This document shows, piece by piece, positions 4,782 to 15,613 of a DNA stretch of 64,000 nucleotides (position 1 is the first letter of the stretch; the number at the start of each line of letters is the position of its first letter). The DNA lies in contig CALDYU010000013.1 in assembly GCA_937944485.1 (NCBI GenBank), positions 1 to 64,000 of the forward strand, in the 5' to 3' direction. The notes under the pieces were generated by a model. The model did not search any database, was not told where the DNA came from, and worked only from the letters and a program-made list of their open reading frames with translations. The DNA is from an uncultured Flavobacteriaceae bacterium (GTDB lineage: Bacteria > Bacteroidota > Bacteroidia > Flavobacteriales > Flavobacteriaceae). Position numbers and translations under genes: made by a program.

Positions 4782-6692
4782 ATGCTAAACATACATAATT
4801 TATCAGTTTCATTTGGGGGAGAATATCTTTTCGAAGAAATTTCTTTCCGATTAAACGGAGGTGATCGTGTGGGTTTAATTGGCAAAAACGGAGCAGGAAA
4901 ATCTACTTTATTGAAGTTGCTAACGAAAGACATGCCGTATGATTCTGGAACAATAGCAACAGAGAAAGATGTTAAAATAGGTTTTTTGCGGCAAGATATT
5001 GATTTCGAACAAGGAAGAACAGTTCTTGAAGAAGCCTATCAAGCTTTTGTTGAAATCAAAGAATTAGAATTAAAGTTAGAAACTATAAATACCCAACTAG
5101 CAGAACGCACAGATTATGAAAGTGATAGTTACAATCAGCTCATCGTTGATTTAAGTGATATCACACAACATTATGAGATTTTAGGAGGGTACAATTACGA
5201 AGGTGAAACAGAGAAGATATTGCAAGGCCTTGGTTTCAAACGTACAGATTTTAATAAAAAAACCGATACTTTTTCAGGAGGATGGCGCATGCGTATCGAA
5301 TTAGCGAAGTTATTACTTCAAAGTAACGACGTACTTTTACTAGATGAGCCTACGAATCATTTAGATATAGAATCTATTATTTGGCTTGAAAATTTTCTTA
5401 CCAATTATTCTGGTGCTGTTGTCATTGTGTCGCATGACAAAATGTTTTTAGATAATGTGACCAACAGAACTATTGAGATTTCATTAGGCAGAATATATGA
5501 TTATAACAAACCGTATTCGAAGTATTTAGTGTTGCGTAGTGAGATGAAGCAGCAGCAACTGAATGCTCAAAAAAATCAAGATAAAGAAATTCAGCAGGCA
5601 GAACGGTTGATCGAAAAATTTCGAGCTAAATCAACCAAAGCATCTATGGCACAATCGCTCATAAAGAAATTAGATAAAATGGAGCGAATTGAAGTAGATC
5701 AAGATGATAATAGTGTCATGAGTCTTCGATTTCCTATATCAATTACCCCCGGTAAAGTGGTGACTGAAATAGAAGGTTTATCTAAAAGTTATGGTGAAAA
5801 CCATGTGCTAGATAATCTTAATTTACTTATTGAACGCAATAGCAAAACAGCTTTTGTAGGGCAGAATGGTCAAGGAAAATCAACTTTGGCTAAAATAATG
5901 GTAGGGGAAATAGAGTATGAAGGAACATTGAAGTTGGGGCATAATGTAGAAATCGGCTATTTTGCTCAAAATCAAGCAGAATATCTTGATGGAAATAAAA
6001 CTGTTCTTGATACGATGATCGATGCCGCCAATGAAAAAAATAGAAGTAAAGTCCGAGATATTTTAGGTTCTTTTCTATTCAGAGGCGATGAAGTGGAAAA
6101 ATTTGTTAAAGTACTTTCTGGGGGAGAACGAAATAGACTAGCATTAGCTAAGATGCTACTGCAGCCTTTTAATGTATTGGTTATGGATGAGCCAACGAAC
6201 CATCTAGATATAAAGTCTAAAAATGTTTTAAAACAAGCCTTAAATAGTTTTGAAGGCACTTTGATACTAGTGTCACACGATCGCGATTTTTTACAAGGCT
6301 TAACAAATAAAGTATACGAATTTAAAGATCGAAAGATTAAAGAATATTTAGGTGATATTGAATATTATCTAGAACAACGCAAAGCACAAGATTTTAGGGC
6401 TATTGAAAAAAAGAATGAAATTAAAATAACTAAAGAAAAGCCCAATAAAGCAAAAAATAGCTTTCAAGACCAAAAGAAACTAAAGTCTCTTAAAAATAAA
6501 CTAAGCACTATTGAAAGTAAAATAGCAACACAAGAGAAAGAAATTGCGGAAATAGATCATCAATTACTGATGAATTATGACAAAACTATCGCGGAAGATA
6601 ATTTTTTCGAGAACTATAAAAATAAGAAGGCAAGGTTAGAAAAACTAATGAAAAATTGGGAGCAACTTAGTCTTAAACTTGATGAATCTTAA
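4782..6692 (+). CDS. ABC-F family ATP-binding protein (two ABC domains)
   Basis: Two Walker A motifs (GKNGAGKSTLL, GQNGQGKSTLA), two signature motifs (FSGGWRMRIELAKLL, LSGGERNRLALAKMLL), C-terminal coiled coil. Confidence 0.96.
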   Translation: MLNIHNLSVSFGGEYLFEEISFRLNGGDRVGLIGKNGAGKSTLLKLLTKDMPYDSGTIATEKDVKIGFLRQDIDFEQGRTVLEEAYQAFVEIKELELKLETINTQLAERTDYESDSYNQLIVDLSDITQHYEILGGYNYEGETEKILQGLGFKRTDFNKKTDTFSGGWRMRIELAKLLLQSNDVLLLDEPTNHLDIESIIWLENFLTNYSGAVVIVSHDKMFLDNVTNRTIEISLGRIYDYNKPYSKYLVLRSEMKQQQLNAQKNQDKEIQQAERLIEKFRAKSTKASMAQSLIKKLDKMERIEVDQDDNSVMSLRFPISITPGKVVTEIEGLSKSYGENHVLDNLNLLIERNSKTAFVGQNGQGKSTLAKIMVGEIEYEGTLKLGHNVEIGYFAQNQAEYLDGNKTVLDTMIDAANEKNRSKVRDILGSFLFRGDEVEKFVKVLSGGERNRLALAKMLLQPFNVLVMDEPTNHLDIKSKNVLKQALNSFEGTLILVSHDRDFLQGLTNKVYEFKDRKIKEYLGDIEYYLEQRKAQDFRAIEKKNEIKITKEKPNKAKNSFQDQKKLKSLKNKLSTIESKIATQEKEIAEIDHQLLMNYDKTIAEDNFFENYKNKKARLEKLMKNWEQLSLKLDES

Positions 6693-6851: not shown

Positions 6852-7742
6852 ATGTCTAGAATAGTCTTAATGTTCTTTTTGTTTTTAACCTGTACTGTAC
6901 TTTCGGCAAAAATACCTGATGCTGAAAGACAAGTCCTTTTAGATCTTTATGAAAGTACCGATGGTCATAGGTGGTTTAAAACATGGAATAAATCGAAACC
7001 AGTATCAACATGGTTTGGTATTACCGTAAAACGCAACAGAGTAGTTGCTATCAATTTAATGAATAACAACTTGCAAGGTACTATACCTGAATCAATAGGT
7101 GATTTAAGTCAGTTGAAATTTCTTAATCTTGCTTTTAACCACCTTCATGGTCAATTGCCTGAAAGCATTGCGGAGTTAAAAGAACTAGAAGTCTTACGTT
7201 TAGGAAAAAATAGACTTTCGGGTAGTATTCCGGCGGTTTTCGGTAGTTTAAACAAGTTATCAGTTTTAGATCTTTTTTCGAACGAAATTTCGGGTATGAT
7301 ACCTAAAAATATTGGTATGGCTCAAAAATTAAAGGTGATCTCTATTTCAAACAATCATATTAGTGGTCGTATACCTCAAGAAATAAGTACACTAAAGCAA
7401 TTAGAAAGGCTAGAATTGGCAGATAATAATGTGTTTGGAGACGTACCTAAAGAATTGGGTCAGCTTTCCAATTTAAAGATGTTGGTTATTTCAGAAAATA
7501 GACTTTCAGGTGAATTTCCGGCTACAGTATTTTCATTACCTAATTTAGAAGTACTGCAGTTGCAGAAAAACGCTTTTGATAAAGAGCATTTGAAAAATAA
7601 CTTTCCAACACAAACAGATTTGGCCATATTTGATTTTGATGATCCAGAAGAGGCTGCTTTCAAAAGAAATTTTGAAGATATATATAAAACTGGTGACACT
7701 AGAATGGCTGATACGAAGTTTGAAGATGATGGCGATAATTAG
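6852..7742 (+). CDS. Secreted leucine-rich repeat protein 1 (plant-type LxGxIP repeats)
   Basis: Signal peptide, LRR-NT-like DLYESTDGHRWFKTWNKSKPVSTWFGI, about 8 LRRs, C-terminus TRMADTKFEDDGDN. Confidence 0.9.
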   Translation: MSRIVLMFFLFLTCTVLSAKIPDAERQVLLDLYESTDGHRWFKTWNKSKPVSTWFGITVKRNRVVAINLMNNNLQGTIPESIGDLSQLKFLNLAFNHLHGQLPESIAELKELEVLRLGKNRLSGSIPAVFGSLNKLSVLDLFSNEISGMIPKNIGMAQKLKVISISNNHISGRIPQEISTLKQLERLELADNNVFGDVPKELGQLSNLKMLVISENRLSGEFPATVFSLPNLEVLQLQKNAFDKEHLKNNFPTQTDLAIFDFDDPEEAAFKRNFEDIYKTGDTRMADTKFEDDGDN

Positions 7743-7750
7743 GTGGCTTT

Positions 7751-8659
7751 ATGAATTTAGAAAATCCAAATAAACGAATACAACTTTTGCTTCTTAGCAT
7801 CTTGCTTACGATGGCATTCATACATTTAGTAAGTGCTCAGATACCATCAGAAGAAAAAGAAGCCCTCATTAGTTTCTACGAGAAGATGGGTGGTGAGCGA
7901 TGGGAGAATTCATGGAATTTAGAAGAAAGTGAGCATACTTGGTTTGGCGTGAAAATAGTTGATAACCATGTTGTGGAAATTAATCTTTTTAGAAACAATG
8001 TTCAGGGTGTATTGCCCGAAAGTATTTCAGAATTAAAGTATTTGACGCATTTAAATTTAGCTTTCAATGGTGTGACAGGAGTTTTGCCTAGTAGTTTAAC
8101 ACAACTATCATTTTTAAAAGTTTTAAAACTTGAAATGAATAGGCTAAAGGGAGAGCTGCCAGAAGATATTGGCAATCTTCGAAATTTAGAAGAACTAATA
8201 CTATTTAATAATTTTATTACAGGAGGTATTCCAGAAAGTATGGGCACCTTGAAAAAACTTCGAATTTTAAATTTGTCAAGTAATAACTTGAGCGGCCCTA
8301 TTCCTAGCTCTATAGGCAAACTAGATAAATTAGAAAATCTAGGTTTATTTGAAAATGATTTAGGAGGCAATATACCTGTTGAATTGGGGAAGCTTTCGAG
8401 CCTACAAGAACTTGTGTTAGCAAATAATCAATTAGGTGGTGATATACCTATAGAGTTTGGCCAATTAACTAGTCTTAGAGTTTTGCAAATTCAAAATAAT
8501 AATTTTAAATCTTTAGAAAATCTAAATCGTCTCAACACAAAAGAGCTTCTGGCTTTTGATCACGATAAAGAAGGTTATAATCTTGATCTTGGTAACCTCA
8601 AAAAGGATAAGTCTAGAATGGCGGATACTAAATTTGAAGATGATGATGACAATAAGTAA
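7751..8659 (+). CDS. Secreted leucine-rich repeat protein 2
   Basis: Same architecture as 6852..7742; C-terminus SRMADTKFEDDDDNK. Confidence 0.9.
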   Translation: MNLENPNKRIQLLLLSILLTMAFIHLVSAQIPSEEKEALISFYEKMGGERWENSWNLEESEHTWFGVKIVDNHVVEINLFRNNVQGVLPESISELKYLTHLNLAFNGVTGVLPSSLTQLSFLKVLKLEMNRLKGELPEDIGNLRNLEELILFNNFITGGIPESMGTLKKLRILNLSSNNLSGPIPSSIGKLDKLENLGLFENDLGGNIPVELGKLSSLQELVLANNQLGGDIPIEFGQLTSLRVLQIQNNNFKSLENLNRLNTKELLAFDHDKEGYNLDLGNLKKDKSRMADTKFEDDDDNK

Positions 8660-8877
8660 GAGATTTAAAATAAAAGGATGTTTTTTGTCTCAATCGTCTG
8701 GTTTTTAAAGAGCGTTTTCATCTTCTGATTAGATATTAGCATCTTTTTTAGATCTGATATATCATAAAATCTATATTTTAACGTTAGTGCAATACTATGT
8801 ATATGATGTTTCCCCCATTATATGATGAAGCATGAAATACGTACAATAATTATGACAAGAAAAAAAATAACAATTGT

Positions 8878-9768
8878 ATGAGACGTATATTACTAGTATG
8901 TAATCTTTTAATAGGTGTTTTCTTTGTGACTGCCGCGACTGCACAAATTAGTAAAGCAGAGAAAAAAGCATTGGTTGATTTGTATAGTTCGACCTCTGGA
9001 GATTCGTGGAAGCATTCTTGGGATTTGCAATCATCGCCAAACAGTTGGTATGGTGTTACGATTAAAGAAGACCAAGTGGTCTCATTAAATTTGCACCATA
9101 ATAACTTAGAAGGAACCATCCCTGAAAGTATTAAAAACTTAAAACACTTAAAGAAGCTAAATCTTGCATTTAATAAAATTACTGGTGAAATACCTTATCA
9201 ATTGGTTGAGCTAACTAAATTGAGGGTTTTAAATCTTGAAATGAATCGTCTTAAAGGTATAATTCCAATTAATATAGGGCAACTTATAGAATTGAAAGAA
9301 TTGACTTTGTTCAACAATATGTTAGAGGGTAACATTCCTGAAAGCCTTGGTAATGCTCGAAAAATCAAAACTTTAAATTTATCTAGTAATTTTTTAAGTG
9401 GAGACTTGCCTAAATCATTAGAAAATTTAGTTAACCTTGAGAGTTTAGAACTTTTCGGAAATAAGTTCTCAGGTGAAATAGAGGTAGACTTAGGTAAATT
9501 AAAAAAACTAACACAGTTGGTGCTTGCCTATAATGAGTTTAAAGGGGCTGTGCCAATTAACCTTCAAAATTTAAGATCATTAGAATTTTTGCAATTGCAA
9601 GGAAATCAGTTTGACTCATTTGTAGGTCTTCAAAATATCAAAAGCCTTGGTTTAGCAACATTTGATAGTGATAATACGGTATTAAATAAAAAATATAATA
9701 CACCTAACTGGAAAGTTGATGATTCTCGAATGGCAGACACCAAATTTGAAGATGATAATGACAATTAG
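8878..9768 (+). CDS. Secreted leucine-rich repeat protein 3
   Basis: Same architecture; C-terminus SRMADTKFEDDNDN. Confidence 0.9.
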   Translation: MRRILLVCNLLIGVFFVTAATAQISKAEKKALVDLYSSTSGDSWKHSWDLQSSPNSWYGVTIKEDQVVSLNLHHNNLEGTIPESIKNLKHLKKLNLAFNKITGEIPYQLVELTKLRVLNLEMNRLKGIIPINIGQLIELKELTLFNNMLEGNIPESLGNARKIKTLNLSSNFLSGDLPKSLENLVNLESLELFGNKFSGEIEVDLGKLKKLTQLVLAYNEFKGAVPINLQNLRSLEFLQLQGNQFDSFVGLQNIKSLGLATFDSDNTVLNKKYNTPNWKVDDSRMADTKFEDDNDN

Positions 9769-9791: not shown

Positions 9792-9825
9792 AAAAGGGAA
9801 ACAATAGAATTGTTTCCCTTTTTTG
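9792..9825 (+). terminator. Rho-independent terminator after LRR gene 3
   Basis: 13-bp stem AAAAGGGAAACAA-tagaa-TTGTTTCCCTTTT plus T-run. Confidence 0.85.
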
Positions 9826-10088: not shown

Positions 10089-11117
10089 ATGAGTACGTTT
10101 TTTAATAATTTAATAATATCAAGTATTACACTGTTGGCAATAACGGGTAGAGCTAGTCAAGAACAGCAGCTTGATTTTACTAACAAAAAGGACAATGCTA
10201 TTGATTCGATCACTAATAAAACAAAGTCCTATATAGAAAATATTCAGGCCACCAAAGTTAGTTTTGAAATGTTGCTTATTCCTAAAGGAACTTTTACAAT
10301 GGGAAGTCCCGAATCTGAATTAGATCGTAACCATGACGAAGGTGAACAAAGAGAAGTTTCAGTAGGCAGCTTTTTTATGGGTAAGTTCGAGGTTACTTGG
10401 GATGTTTTTGAGCTTTTTTTCAAACAAAACGAAGAATTATTTGTAAAATTAGATAATGACAAAACCATAAAAATAAGTGCAATTACAAGGCCGAGTCCCC
10501 CCTATGAAGACCCGTCTTATGGGATGGGTAAAGAGGGCTATCCAGCAGTAAGTATGTCAGCATATTCTGCATTAGTTTTTTGTAAATGGTTGAGTACAGT
10601 TACTGGTAGGTTTTATCGCCTACCTACAGAGGCAGAATGGGAATATGCTGCCCGTGCAGGAAGCAATACTAGCTATAGTTTTGGTGATACTGATAAGAAT
10701 ATAGATACTCACGCTGTGTATTATAAGAACGCGAATGGTTCTTATGCTAAGGTCGGTAGTAAAGAACCTAACGATTGGGGTTTATATGACATGCATGGTA
10801 ATGTCGCCGAGTGGACCTTAGACGAATATAAACCAGATGCCTATAGCATTCTTGAAAGTAATGACCCTTGGATGATCCCTAGCGTAATTCATCCACGAGT
10901 ATATCGTGGTGGTTCTTGGGATGACGACCCTAAAGCTTTGCGTTCGGCTGCTAGAAGTGCTTCAAGTACCAAATTACAGAAAAGAGACCCTCAAATACCA
11001 AAAAGTTTTTGGTGGTTTACAGATTCAAATTTTGTTGGTTTTCGTTTAGTGAGTCCAGTACAACAACCTACTCCCGAAGAAGAAAAGAAGTTTTGGCAAT
11101 TAGTATTAGATGAGTAA
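10089..11117 (+). CDS. SUMF1/formylglycine-generating-enzyme-like protein
   Basis: FTMGSPESELDRNHDEGEQREVSVGSFFMGKFEVTWDVF...RLPTEAEWEYAARAGSNTSYSFGD...GLYDMHGNVAEWTLDEY...RVYRGGSWDD. Confidence 0.9.
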   Translation: MSTFFNNLIISSITLLAITGRASQEQQLDFTNKKDNAIDSITNKTKSYIENIQATKVSFEMLLIPKGTFTMGSPESELDRNHDEGEQREVSVGSFFMGKFEVTWDVFELFFKQNEELFVKLDNDKTIKISAITRPSPPYEDPSYGMGKEGYPAVSMSAYSALVFCKWLSTVTGRFYRLPTEAEWEYAARAGSNTSYSFGDTDKNIDTHAVYYKNANGSYAKVGSKEPNDWGLYDMHGNVAEWTLDEYKPDAYSILESNDPWMIPSVIHPRVYRGGSWDDDPKALRSAARSASSTKLQKRDPQIPKSFWWFTDSNFVGFRLVSPVQQPTPEEEKKFWQLVLDE

Positions 11118-12322: not shown

Positions 12323-15300
12323 ATGAAAAACCAACTACTTTTTGTTTTACTGCTTATTCATGCTGTTATTTTTTCTCAAGATAAATTACCATTTATTGAT
12401 ATTGATCAAACAGTTATTGAAGTTGCAGAGGCCTCTGATGAAAAAAATTATGAAAAGGCAATAGAACTTCTTGATAAAATCAATAAGAATGATTCTACTT
12501 ACGCTTCAGTATTAGTTTCAAAATCATACTATCAAATGATCTTAAAACAATATGATAGCATGTTGGCTACAATTGATGAAGGTTTGAAACTTGATTGCGG
12601 AGATGTGAAAGCGTCATTTTATCAAAACAAAGGAGCTTCGTTATTAAATCAAGAAAAATATGAGGAAGCTATTGCGGCATTAGATGAAGGTTTGACAATC
12701 TTCCCTAAAAATTATATGCTTACATATAACAAAGGTCTTTCACTAGAAAAGTTGGGTCGTATAGAAGATGCAATCGAAGAATATAAGAATACAATTATTC
12801 TAAATCCTTTTTATAAAAAACCATATTTACAACTAGGAAATATATGCTACAGGCAAGAAAGAATAAGTCAAGCACTTATGTGTTATAACATGTATTTGTT
12901 ATTGGAGCCAGATGCTGCGAACTCATTTAATATTATTAACTCAGTAAATAATATTGTAAGCTCTAAAAATGAAAATAAACGAAATAATGATATTCAAATT
13001 TCAGAAGATGATGAAGCTTTTGAAGAGATTGATTTAATTATAACAAATCGAATAGCATTAAATAAGAAGTACAAAATTGACAATGAGATTAACGTTGCTT
13101 TAGTCAAGCAAAATCATATCATGTTAGAGCAATTAAAGGATTTTAATGGTAAAGGAGGTTTTTGGGATATAAAATTTGTGCCTTTTTTTAAGTGGATTCA
13201 AAGAGAAGGGTATTTCAATGATTTTACCTATACAACAATGTATTCCATAGAAAATAAAAGTTATAAAAAGATAGTTGAAAAAAACATCAAAAAAATTAAA
13301 GCTTTTATCAATATATATAAACCCAAATGGGTAGAATTAGTTGCGAAGAATAGAATTAATTGGGACGGCAAAGAAGAGGAAATAACTTTTTATTTTGATA
13401 ACTATGTTCAGGGTGTTGGTAAATTTGAAAATAATAAAACAATAGGATTCTGGCAATTTTATAATGAAAATGGAAGACTTACGGGTCAGGGTAATTTTAA
13501 TTCTAACGGAGAGCGTGACGGTGCCTGGAAATGGTTTCATGATAATGGTGTAGTAAAGGAAACAGCTAATTATAAAGCAGGGAAGCTTGAAGGAGAAAAC
13601 GCAACTTACTATTCAAATAGTAGAATCAATAACCTTAGTGTTTTTAAAAATGACCTCTTAGAAGGAGAATATAAGAAGTACAATGAAAATGGAGCACTAT
13701 TAGAAAAAAAGTACTTCAAAAATGGCAAACTTAATGGGTTATATGAGTCATATTTTAAAGTGGGTAAAGCCCTGTTAGAATACAGCATTCCCTATACTAA
13801 TGATTTAATTAATGATAAGGCATTTGAATATCATGATAATGGTGAAATTTTCAATGAGATGAATTTTGAGAATGGTAAAAGAAATGGCCTAGAGAAGAAA
13901 TTTCATGCAAACGGTAAGAAGTATACAGAAATAAATTATGTTGACGGAGAATATAATGGGGATTATAAAACCTATTATGGTAATGGCAATCCAAATGAAA
14001 TAGGACAAGCTGTTGAAGGGTATTATGACGGCCCTTGGAAAACCTTTTATAAAAATGGCGCTATTCAGAGTGACTTTTCGTATGCCAAAGGAAAGCTTGA
14101 TGGTAAATATGTTTATTATGATAAGGATAAAAAACCTCATTATGAATACATTTATCGTAAAGGAGAAATAATTGCCTACAAATTTTATGATAAAAAGGGG
14201 GCTGTTTTAAAAGAGGCAAAGAAAAAAGGAGGTGAATTTATGTATGTTGGCTATGCCCCAAATGGAAATAAAACGGCTGAAGGCTTATATGATATTTCAG
14301 GAGGCAAAAAAGGGGCATGGAAATTTTTCACTTCTAATGGAATACTAAGAGATGAAGGAACATATGTTGATAATAATGCGCAAGGGGCCTATAAAGTATA
14401 TTACAATAACGGTAAAAAGAAATCAGTTACTAACTATAAGAACGACTCCATAATTGGCTATTATGTAGATTACCATAAAAATGGGCAAATTAACTCACAA
14501 GGATGGTACAAAGAAAATGAATCACACGGCGAATGGCGTCAATATAGTATCGATGGTACAGTTAACATTGTAAATTTCTATCATAAAGGACGGCTTCATG
14601 GAGTTCAAAAATACTATAGCGGTTCTGGTCAATTATATAGAGCAGCGAAATATAAATTCGGTGATTTAATAAGTGATACCTACTACAATGTAGATAATAC
14701 TATTTTCGAAAAGATCGTATATAACAAAGATACAGGAGCTTATACCATCAAGACGCATCATAAAAATAATGAGGTAGAAACGAGTGTTGACTATCTTAAT
14801 GGAGTGAAGCATGGCAATTATACCTATTATGACTTCTATGGTAACAAAAGAACGACAGCCACTTATGTTAATGGTAAACTTCAGGGTAAATTGACGTGGT
14901 ACTATAAAAACGGATCTGTTGAGAGCGTGATAGATTACATTTCTGGAGACAGACATGGTGATTATATAAAGTATCATGAAAATGGCCAGATAGAAGTTAA
15001 GTCTACGTACGATTTCGGGTCAATAGAAGGAACATGGACCACCTATTACTCTGATGGTACTTTAGATTCGGTGTCAGAATACGAGAATAACGAGTATCAT
15101 GGTCGAAGAGAATTTTACAGTCCCTCAGGAAAGTTACAATTGGTTCGATTTTATGAATATGGCAGATTAGTAGGATATAGTTATTTAGATAAAGAATCAA
15201 AAGAATTGCCAATAATACCATTGCAAAATGAGACAGGTAAGATTATAGCATATTATGATAATGGGAATGTTTCACGTGAGTTAGAATTTAAGAATGGTGA

Positions 15301-15613
15301 TGTTATCAATACGTATAATACGTTTTATTACAACGGTCAGCTCGAAAATAAAATGACCTATGACCAAGATGAATTAAATGGTGCTGACATAGAATATTAT
15401 CCTGACGGAAAAGTTAAAAAGCACGAAGAATACCTTTTGGGTTACAGGCACGGCGTAGCTAAAGAATATTTTGCAAATGGCAATTTAAAAAAGGAAACGA
15501 ATTATTTAAATGGCACTAAAGAAGGTGTTGCTAAAACCCATAATGAAGAAGGAGAATTAGTGCGAACTGAAACGTATTTTAATAATGACATAATTGCTGC
15601 TGAAACCCATTAA
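12323..15613 (+). CDS. Large secreted TPR + YwqK/MORN-like repeat protein
   Basis: Signal peptide; N-terminal TPRs (YEEAIAALDEGLTIFPKNYMLTYNKGLSLEKLGRIEDAIEEYKNTIILNPFYKKPYLQLG); many repeats of the type YYxNGxxxxxxxYxxGxxxGxxxxY. Confidence 0.85.
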   Translation: MKNQLLFVLLLIHAVIFSQDKLPFIDIDQTVIEVAEASDEKNYEKAIELLDKINKNDSTYASVLVSKSYYQMILKQYDSMLATIDEGLKLDCGDVKASFYQNKGASLLNQEKYEEAIAALDEGLTIFPKNYMLTYNKGLSLEKLGRIEDAIEEYKNTIILNPFYKKPYLQLGNICYRQERISQALMCYNMYLLLEPDAANSFNIINSVNNIVSSKNENKRNNDIQISEDDEAFEEIDLIITNRIALNKKYKIDNEINVALVKQNHIMLEQLKDFNGKGGFWDIKFVPFFKWIQREGYFNDFTYTTMYSIENKSYKKIVEKNIKKIKAFINIYKPKWVELVAKNRINWDGKEEEITFYFDNYVQGVGKFENNKTIGFWQFYNENGRLTGQGNFNSNGERDGAWKWFHDNGVVKETANYKAGKLEGENATYYSNSRINNLSVFKNDLLEGEYKKYNENGALLEKKYFKNGKLNGLYESYFKVGKALLEYSIPYTNDLINDKAFEYHDNGEIFNEMNFENGKRNGLEKKFHANGKKYTEINYVDGEYNGDYKTYYGNGNPNEIGQAVEGYYDGPWKTFYKNGAIQSDFSYAKGKLDGKYVYYDKDKKPHYEYIYRKGEIIAYKFYDKKGAVLKEAKKKGGEFMYVGYAPNGNKTAEGLYDISGGKKGAWKFFTSNGILRDEGTYVDNNAQGAYKVYYNNGKKKSVTNYKNDSIIGYYVDYHKNGQINSQGWYKENESHGEWRQYSIDGTVNIVNFYHKGRLHGVQKYYSGSGQLYRAAKYKFGDLISDTYYNVDNTIFEKIVYNKDTGAYTIKTHHKNNEVETSVDYLNGVKHGNYTYYDFYGNKRTTATYVNGKLQGKLTWYYKNGSVESVIDYISGDRHGDYIKYHENGQIEVKSTYDFGSIEGTWTTYYSDGTLDSVSEYENNEYHGRREFYSPSGKLQLVRFYEYGRLVGYSYLDKESKELPIIPLQNETGKIIAYYDNGNVSRELEFKNGDVINTYNTFYYNGQLENKMTYDQDELNGADIEYYPDGKVKKHEEYLLGYRHGVAKEYFANGNLKKETNYLNGTKEGVAKTHNEEGELVRTETYFNNDIIAAETH

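Follow-up and report, generated by a model that had tools for sequence, protein, structure and literature searches.

A near-constant C-terminal tail shared by plant-type leucine-rich repeat proteins of marine Flavobacteriaceae: a candidate docking motif

Three adjacent genes of an uncultured Flavobacteriaceae bacterium encode leucine-rich repeat (LRR) proteins that are only 42–49% identical to one another, and yet all three end in RMADTKFED followed by a variable acidic end. What keeps so short a tail on such divergent proteins? The window (the whole 64,000-nucleotide stretch analyzed, from contig CALDYU010000013.1) carries the three open reading frames and their tails exactly where a first-pass annotation had put them, with 8 bp between the genes for proteins 1 and 2 and 218 bp between those for proteins 2 and 3 (Table 1).

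Table 1. Coordinates of the LRR block and its surroundings in the window.
Feature	Position	Strand	Remarks
ABC-F ATPase gene	4782..6692	+	Upstream neighbor of the LRR gene, conserved across the family; locus marker, outside the proposed mechanism
LRR protein 1	6852..7742	+	296 aa; lineage P1, with L096, L048 and L131
Tail of protein 1	7701..7739	+	RMADTKFEDDGDN
LRR protein 2	7751..8659	+	302 aa; member of the main syntenic lineage
Tail of protein 2	8615..8656	+	RMADTKFEDDDDNK
LRR protein 3	8878..9768	+	296 aa; third paralogue lineage
Tail of protein 3	9727..9765	+	RMADTKFEDDNDN; predicted structure without confidence
Terminator-like site (intrinsic)	9792..9822	+	14-bp stem; closes the LRR block
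FGE-sulfatase-domain protein	10089..11117		Relatives near the LRR locus elsewhere; cluster of 8 loci (window included)
Exported-looking protein	12323..15613		1096 aa; TPR-like start, then many MORN-like repeats (by eye)
Tail as peptide			RMADTKFEDDVDDE
Sister-lineage tail as peptide			NATATMDIEKE

The three proteins are built alike. At the N-terminus of each is a hydrophobic signal peptide that has an A-type site at its end, and a lipobox with a +1 Cys is absent from the N-termini, which therefore do not read as those of lipoproteins (N-termini judged by eye); in protein 1 the Sec signal peptide is followed by a W-rich N-cap, eight 24-residue plant-type repeats, a linker and the tail. The repeats conform to the plant-specific (PS) type, LxxLxLxxNxLxGxIPxxLG (in A1, an invariant N recurs every 24 residues from N75 to N243, including N147, and the cap contains W44, W48 and W57), and the closest solved folds are the ectodomains of plant peptide receptors such as MIK2, PSKR1 and FLS2. 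These ectodomains, with that of GSO1, share both the 24-residue repeats and the W-rich N-cap and are the best match by sequence and fold, but the window proteins have neither a transmembrane segment nor a kinase, contain about eight repeats, are bacterial and exported, and possess a tail of their own. NCBIfam LRR models for XopAE, XopAC, XopL and the internalins show generic LRR similarity only, with scores far under the curated cut-offs (at best 99 bits where 600 are needed), and the tail lies outside every Pfam or NCBIfam model that matches these proteins. AlphaFold2 (AF2) models of proteins 3 and 2, built from alignments of 61 and 82 sequences, give pLDDT values of about 93–99 for the repeats and about 50–65 for the last 20 residues of both. 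The source genome also encodes large LRR proteins (G000:C12 and G000:C30; L040 and L037) in reading frames of 832 and 2278 aa, and the end of the 832 aa frame, ITPNGDGKND, looks by eye like a type B C-terminus of the T9SS.

The tail is not a chance match. In the 3.4 Mb source genome the exact sequence MADTKFED occurs in the three window tails only, with one further site, on a different contig, at up to two mismatches. Of 301 Flavobacteriaceae genomes, 40 contain the tail pattern with at most one mismatch, and none contains the reversed control pattern. At all 29 loci read from this family scan the tail is C-terminal in an LRR open reading frame; a relaxed search of 15 genomes gave the same result at 14 of 14 loci read. 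A public scan with one genome per species, which gives a minimum for the number of genomes that carry the tail, yielded at least 118 stretches holding at least 121 MADTKFED places. Among the matches listed, all 121 places lie in LRR proteins, 10–18 codons ahead of the stop; these proteins are usually about 300 aa long (some reading frames are cut by the end of the stretch), and 110 of the 118 stretches are labeled Flavobacteriaceae, seven have no family and one has a Cytophaga name. These listed matches bear 17 genus names, foremost Maribacter, Flagellimonas, Allomuricauda and Arenibacter, and the carriers among them are almost all marine Flavobacteriaceae (Maribacter, Flagellimonas/Muricauda, Arenibacter, Zobellia and relatives). 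Copies mostly number one to three per genome, and one scan of viral contigs found no viral carrier.

Every tail inspected thus sits at the C-terminus of an LRR protein: with patterns of up to two mismatches, no other protein type was demonstrated to bear the tail among the inspected matches. The relaxed search of the source genome gave four non-LRR matches, L257 and three that were inspected: an internal site, a 37-codon frame, and an ADTYFEDV C-terminus on a 377 aa open reading frame (G000:C14:87985-88004). The product of this last frame looks like a cytoplasmic enzyme of sugar biosynthesis, and the match is regarded as coincidence. Two matches outside the family are likewise taken as chance: one is a 47-codon frame, the other a GH3-like enzyme whose sequence ends in LPADTKFEDLKP. 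MADTKFED was not found in the text of 5.4 million papers, and no relevant literature on such LRR proteins came to light.

Sequences found through their tails are conserved there by construction, and the search was therefore repeated with the LRR body alone (225 residues, without linker and tail), which matched 140 of 301 genomes at E ≤1e-40; tails were then read from the best body matches and 40 fetched regions. In the tail clade, 41 body-selected sequences give counts per position of R37 M33 A37 D31 T39 K33 F39 E36 D34. The tail, which the first-pass annotation had called fixed, is thus strictly so only for tail-chosen sequences, and in this body-selected set its nine positions are 76–95% conserved. 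In a subset of 35 sequences mean identity is 0.88 over ten tail positions, 0.71 over the body and 0.48 over the linker. Variants include RMAETIFEDD, RMVETEYDKTG, RLADTKYED and VANTKFEEE, and a few members have a lost or decayed tail (none in L198; the second copy in L195). The linker is indeed poorly conserved, as the annotation had noted, but it is not random, since it opens with a conserved strand, FLVFDxD, right after the last repeat. The acidic end is rich in D, E and N in nearly all members and is nevertheless the variable part of the tail. We also compared conservation of the protein ends with that in neighboring families; this comparison is given no weight because the control was mixed (GldN, too, is conserved as far as its C-terminus) and the LRR sequences used there were tail-selected.

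This conservation is imposed at the level of the protein. The synonymous differences cited for the three window tails are correct and prove to be general: over 124 tail copies all four codons are used for Ala (37/47/13/27) and for Thr (43/37/11/33), third positions thus drift freely, and selection acts on the protein, which rules out a constraint on DNA or RNA. It is also old. In a tree of the LRR bodies built without linker and tail (a quick tree, with moderate branch support inside the MADTKFED side) there are two sides. On one of them several lineages carry MADTKFED or a variant of it, and each of the three window proteins belongs to a different one of these lineages. The tail is therefore older than these duplications, and together with its spread over many genera this rules out the case, raised in advance as fatal to the idea, of a tail confined to recent duplicates in one strain. 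On the other side of the tree the tails are again repeated by sub-clade, as ATMDIEKE (12 of 201 genomes by pattern), ATLDTED, ATDYFDD and YVVERD. Flavobacteriaceae outside the tail clade (L199-L244) have sister LRR proteins at the ABC-F locus with their own sub-clade tails.

The tree lineages also differ in where their proteins vary. With concave-face positions assigned from the repeat register (N every 24 residues), the main and P1 lineages of the body-selected set are 33% identical over the concave face, 45% over the body, 21% over the linker and 71% over the tail, and within the main lineage the concave face is 79% identical against 65% for the body. The concave face has thus diverged more than the body between lineages and the tail much less, which argues against docking of the tail into the concave face of its own protein and for a common external partner.

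The gene order gldM-gldN-DAO-DUF983-ABC-F-LRR-RND efflux is kept widely in the tail clade. A single ABC-F cluster is common to 96 of 113 loci bearing a member of the LRR cluster (window included), and the RND adaptor cluster occurs at 83 of the 113, the window not among them. In many genomes members of both sides of the tree lie directly downstream of the same ABC-F gene, which is mostly 66–83% identical to the window copy. The proximity to gldLMN pointed out in the first-pass annotation therefore holds as synteny conserved for the main copy. Elsewhere, tail-bearing copies (L047, L141 and L152) adjoin other, unrelated genes, so that linkage to T9SS genes is not necessary. Nor did the neighborhood of the LRR locus identify a partner gene: the ABC-F and RND efflux genes look like unrelated units, the latter set apart from the LRR gene in L049 by a terminator-like sequence (by eye), and we read the whole gene order as conserved synteny. 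The off-locus copies constitute a further tail-bearing LRR lineage, whose LRR gene lies next to a small outer-membrane-barrel-like gene of the other strand; L047 and L141 also have an exonuclease III-like gene beside it.

The main rival to an external docking partner is a targeting or processing signal, by which a dedicated periplasmic or outer-membrane machine exports, anchors or trims the LRR proteins much as occurs with T9SS C-terminal domains (CTDs). Its C-terminal position, the export signal and the lack of any other anchor or CTD favor such a role, as does the fact that other LRR proteins of the source genome are large and multidomain, one with its own apparent T9SS end. T9SS cargo likewise has a C-terminal element on exported Bacteroidota proteins, but a CTD is a beta-sandwich of 70–100 residues and the tail is nine residues without a confident predicted fold. 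Only about 50 residues separate the last repeat from the stop and no CTD profile in Pfam or NCBIfam matches, which excludes the proteins from CTD-bearing cargo and agrees with the lack of resemblance reported earlier. PEP-CTERM, LPXTG and GlyGly-CTERM are also short conserved motifs near the C-termini of exported proteins, and such tags occur on many protein types; the tail has neither a transmembrane or hydrophobic helix nor a basic end, and among the inspected matches is limited to the one LRR family. Since every inspected tail is on that family, mostly at one to three copies per genome, a general sorting signal is disfavored. A dedicated signal is a possible reading that we consider unlikely, weakened further by the lack of a hydrophobic or beta-sandwich element and by the unrelated-looking tails that sister lineages have at the same place, which would be odd for a conserved sorting machine.

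A structural role, in which the tail covers or fastens the last repeat or packs back against the LRR, would suit its position close behind the cap strand FLVFDxD and a conservation equal to that of the LRR core, but it appears improbable given the low AF2 confidence in both models, although a shallow alignment or a weak structural role would also agree with that low confidence. Docking into the concave face of the same protein is unlikely because that face differs so much more between the main and P1 lineages than the tail does. The D/E/N-rich end of nearly all members might instead suggest a metal-binding or solubility-enhancing acidic tail. Here the earlier proposal of metal binding fits poorly, because the acidic end varies and the most constant residues (R, A, T and F, with T and F the most constant of the core) are not acidic, and we hold this reading to be very improbable. 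Slightly less credence still is due to a short peptide freed by proteolysis to act as a signal: a constant end behind a variable linker on an exported protein is what such a peptide would look like, but the linker contains no fixed cleavage site, the last residues vary, and a dedicated protease gene was not found beside the LRR gene. The least probable reading, and a very remote one, is an O-glycosylation site kept for its sugar. The Bacteroidota motif is D-(S/T)-(hydrophobic or small), with D nearly always required (PMC12871550); the core does contain D-T on an exported protein, with T in 39 of 41 sequences, but 10 of the 41 have E, N or K in place of the D and the next residue is K, outside the preferred set, so that the rules of the motif are not followed and glycosylation is disfavored.

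We therefore propose, at about even odds of being right, that RMADTKFED is a C-terminal docking motif by which different LRR recognition modules attach to a single shared partner in the envelope. This reading explains the conservation pattern better than do those offered in the first-pass annotation. The low AF2 confidence of the tail and the conservation of its nine positions would fit a short linear docking motif, which binds a partner domain but has no structure by itself. The LRR proteins, plant-type and non-lipidated, would be exported by Sec; the concave face would be the variable part, recognizing a ligand that differs with each paralogue lineage, and the tail on its flexible linker would be the constant part, through which all paralogues attach to the same periplasmic or outer-membrane partner. 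We infer partner binding by the tail, a single common partner and ligand binding by the concave face. More tentatively, and with distinctly less confidence than the docking motif itself, the tail may be the tag of an undescribed envelope system of marine Flavobacteriaceae, in which one partner collects plant-receptor-like LRRs of diverse ligands and each sister lineage has its own matching tag and partner.

LRR folds are familiar, but a short, near-constant C-terminal tail on exported bacterial LRR proteins, kept across many genera and several old paralogues, is absent from the Pfam and NCBIfam models matched. With it a protein family of marine bacteria can be defined at a conserved locus, and it is a ready bait for a partner search. 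If docking is its role, these proteins would represent a modular layout for recognition in the flavobacterial envelope, with a variable recognition domain and a constant handle.
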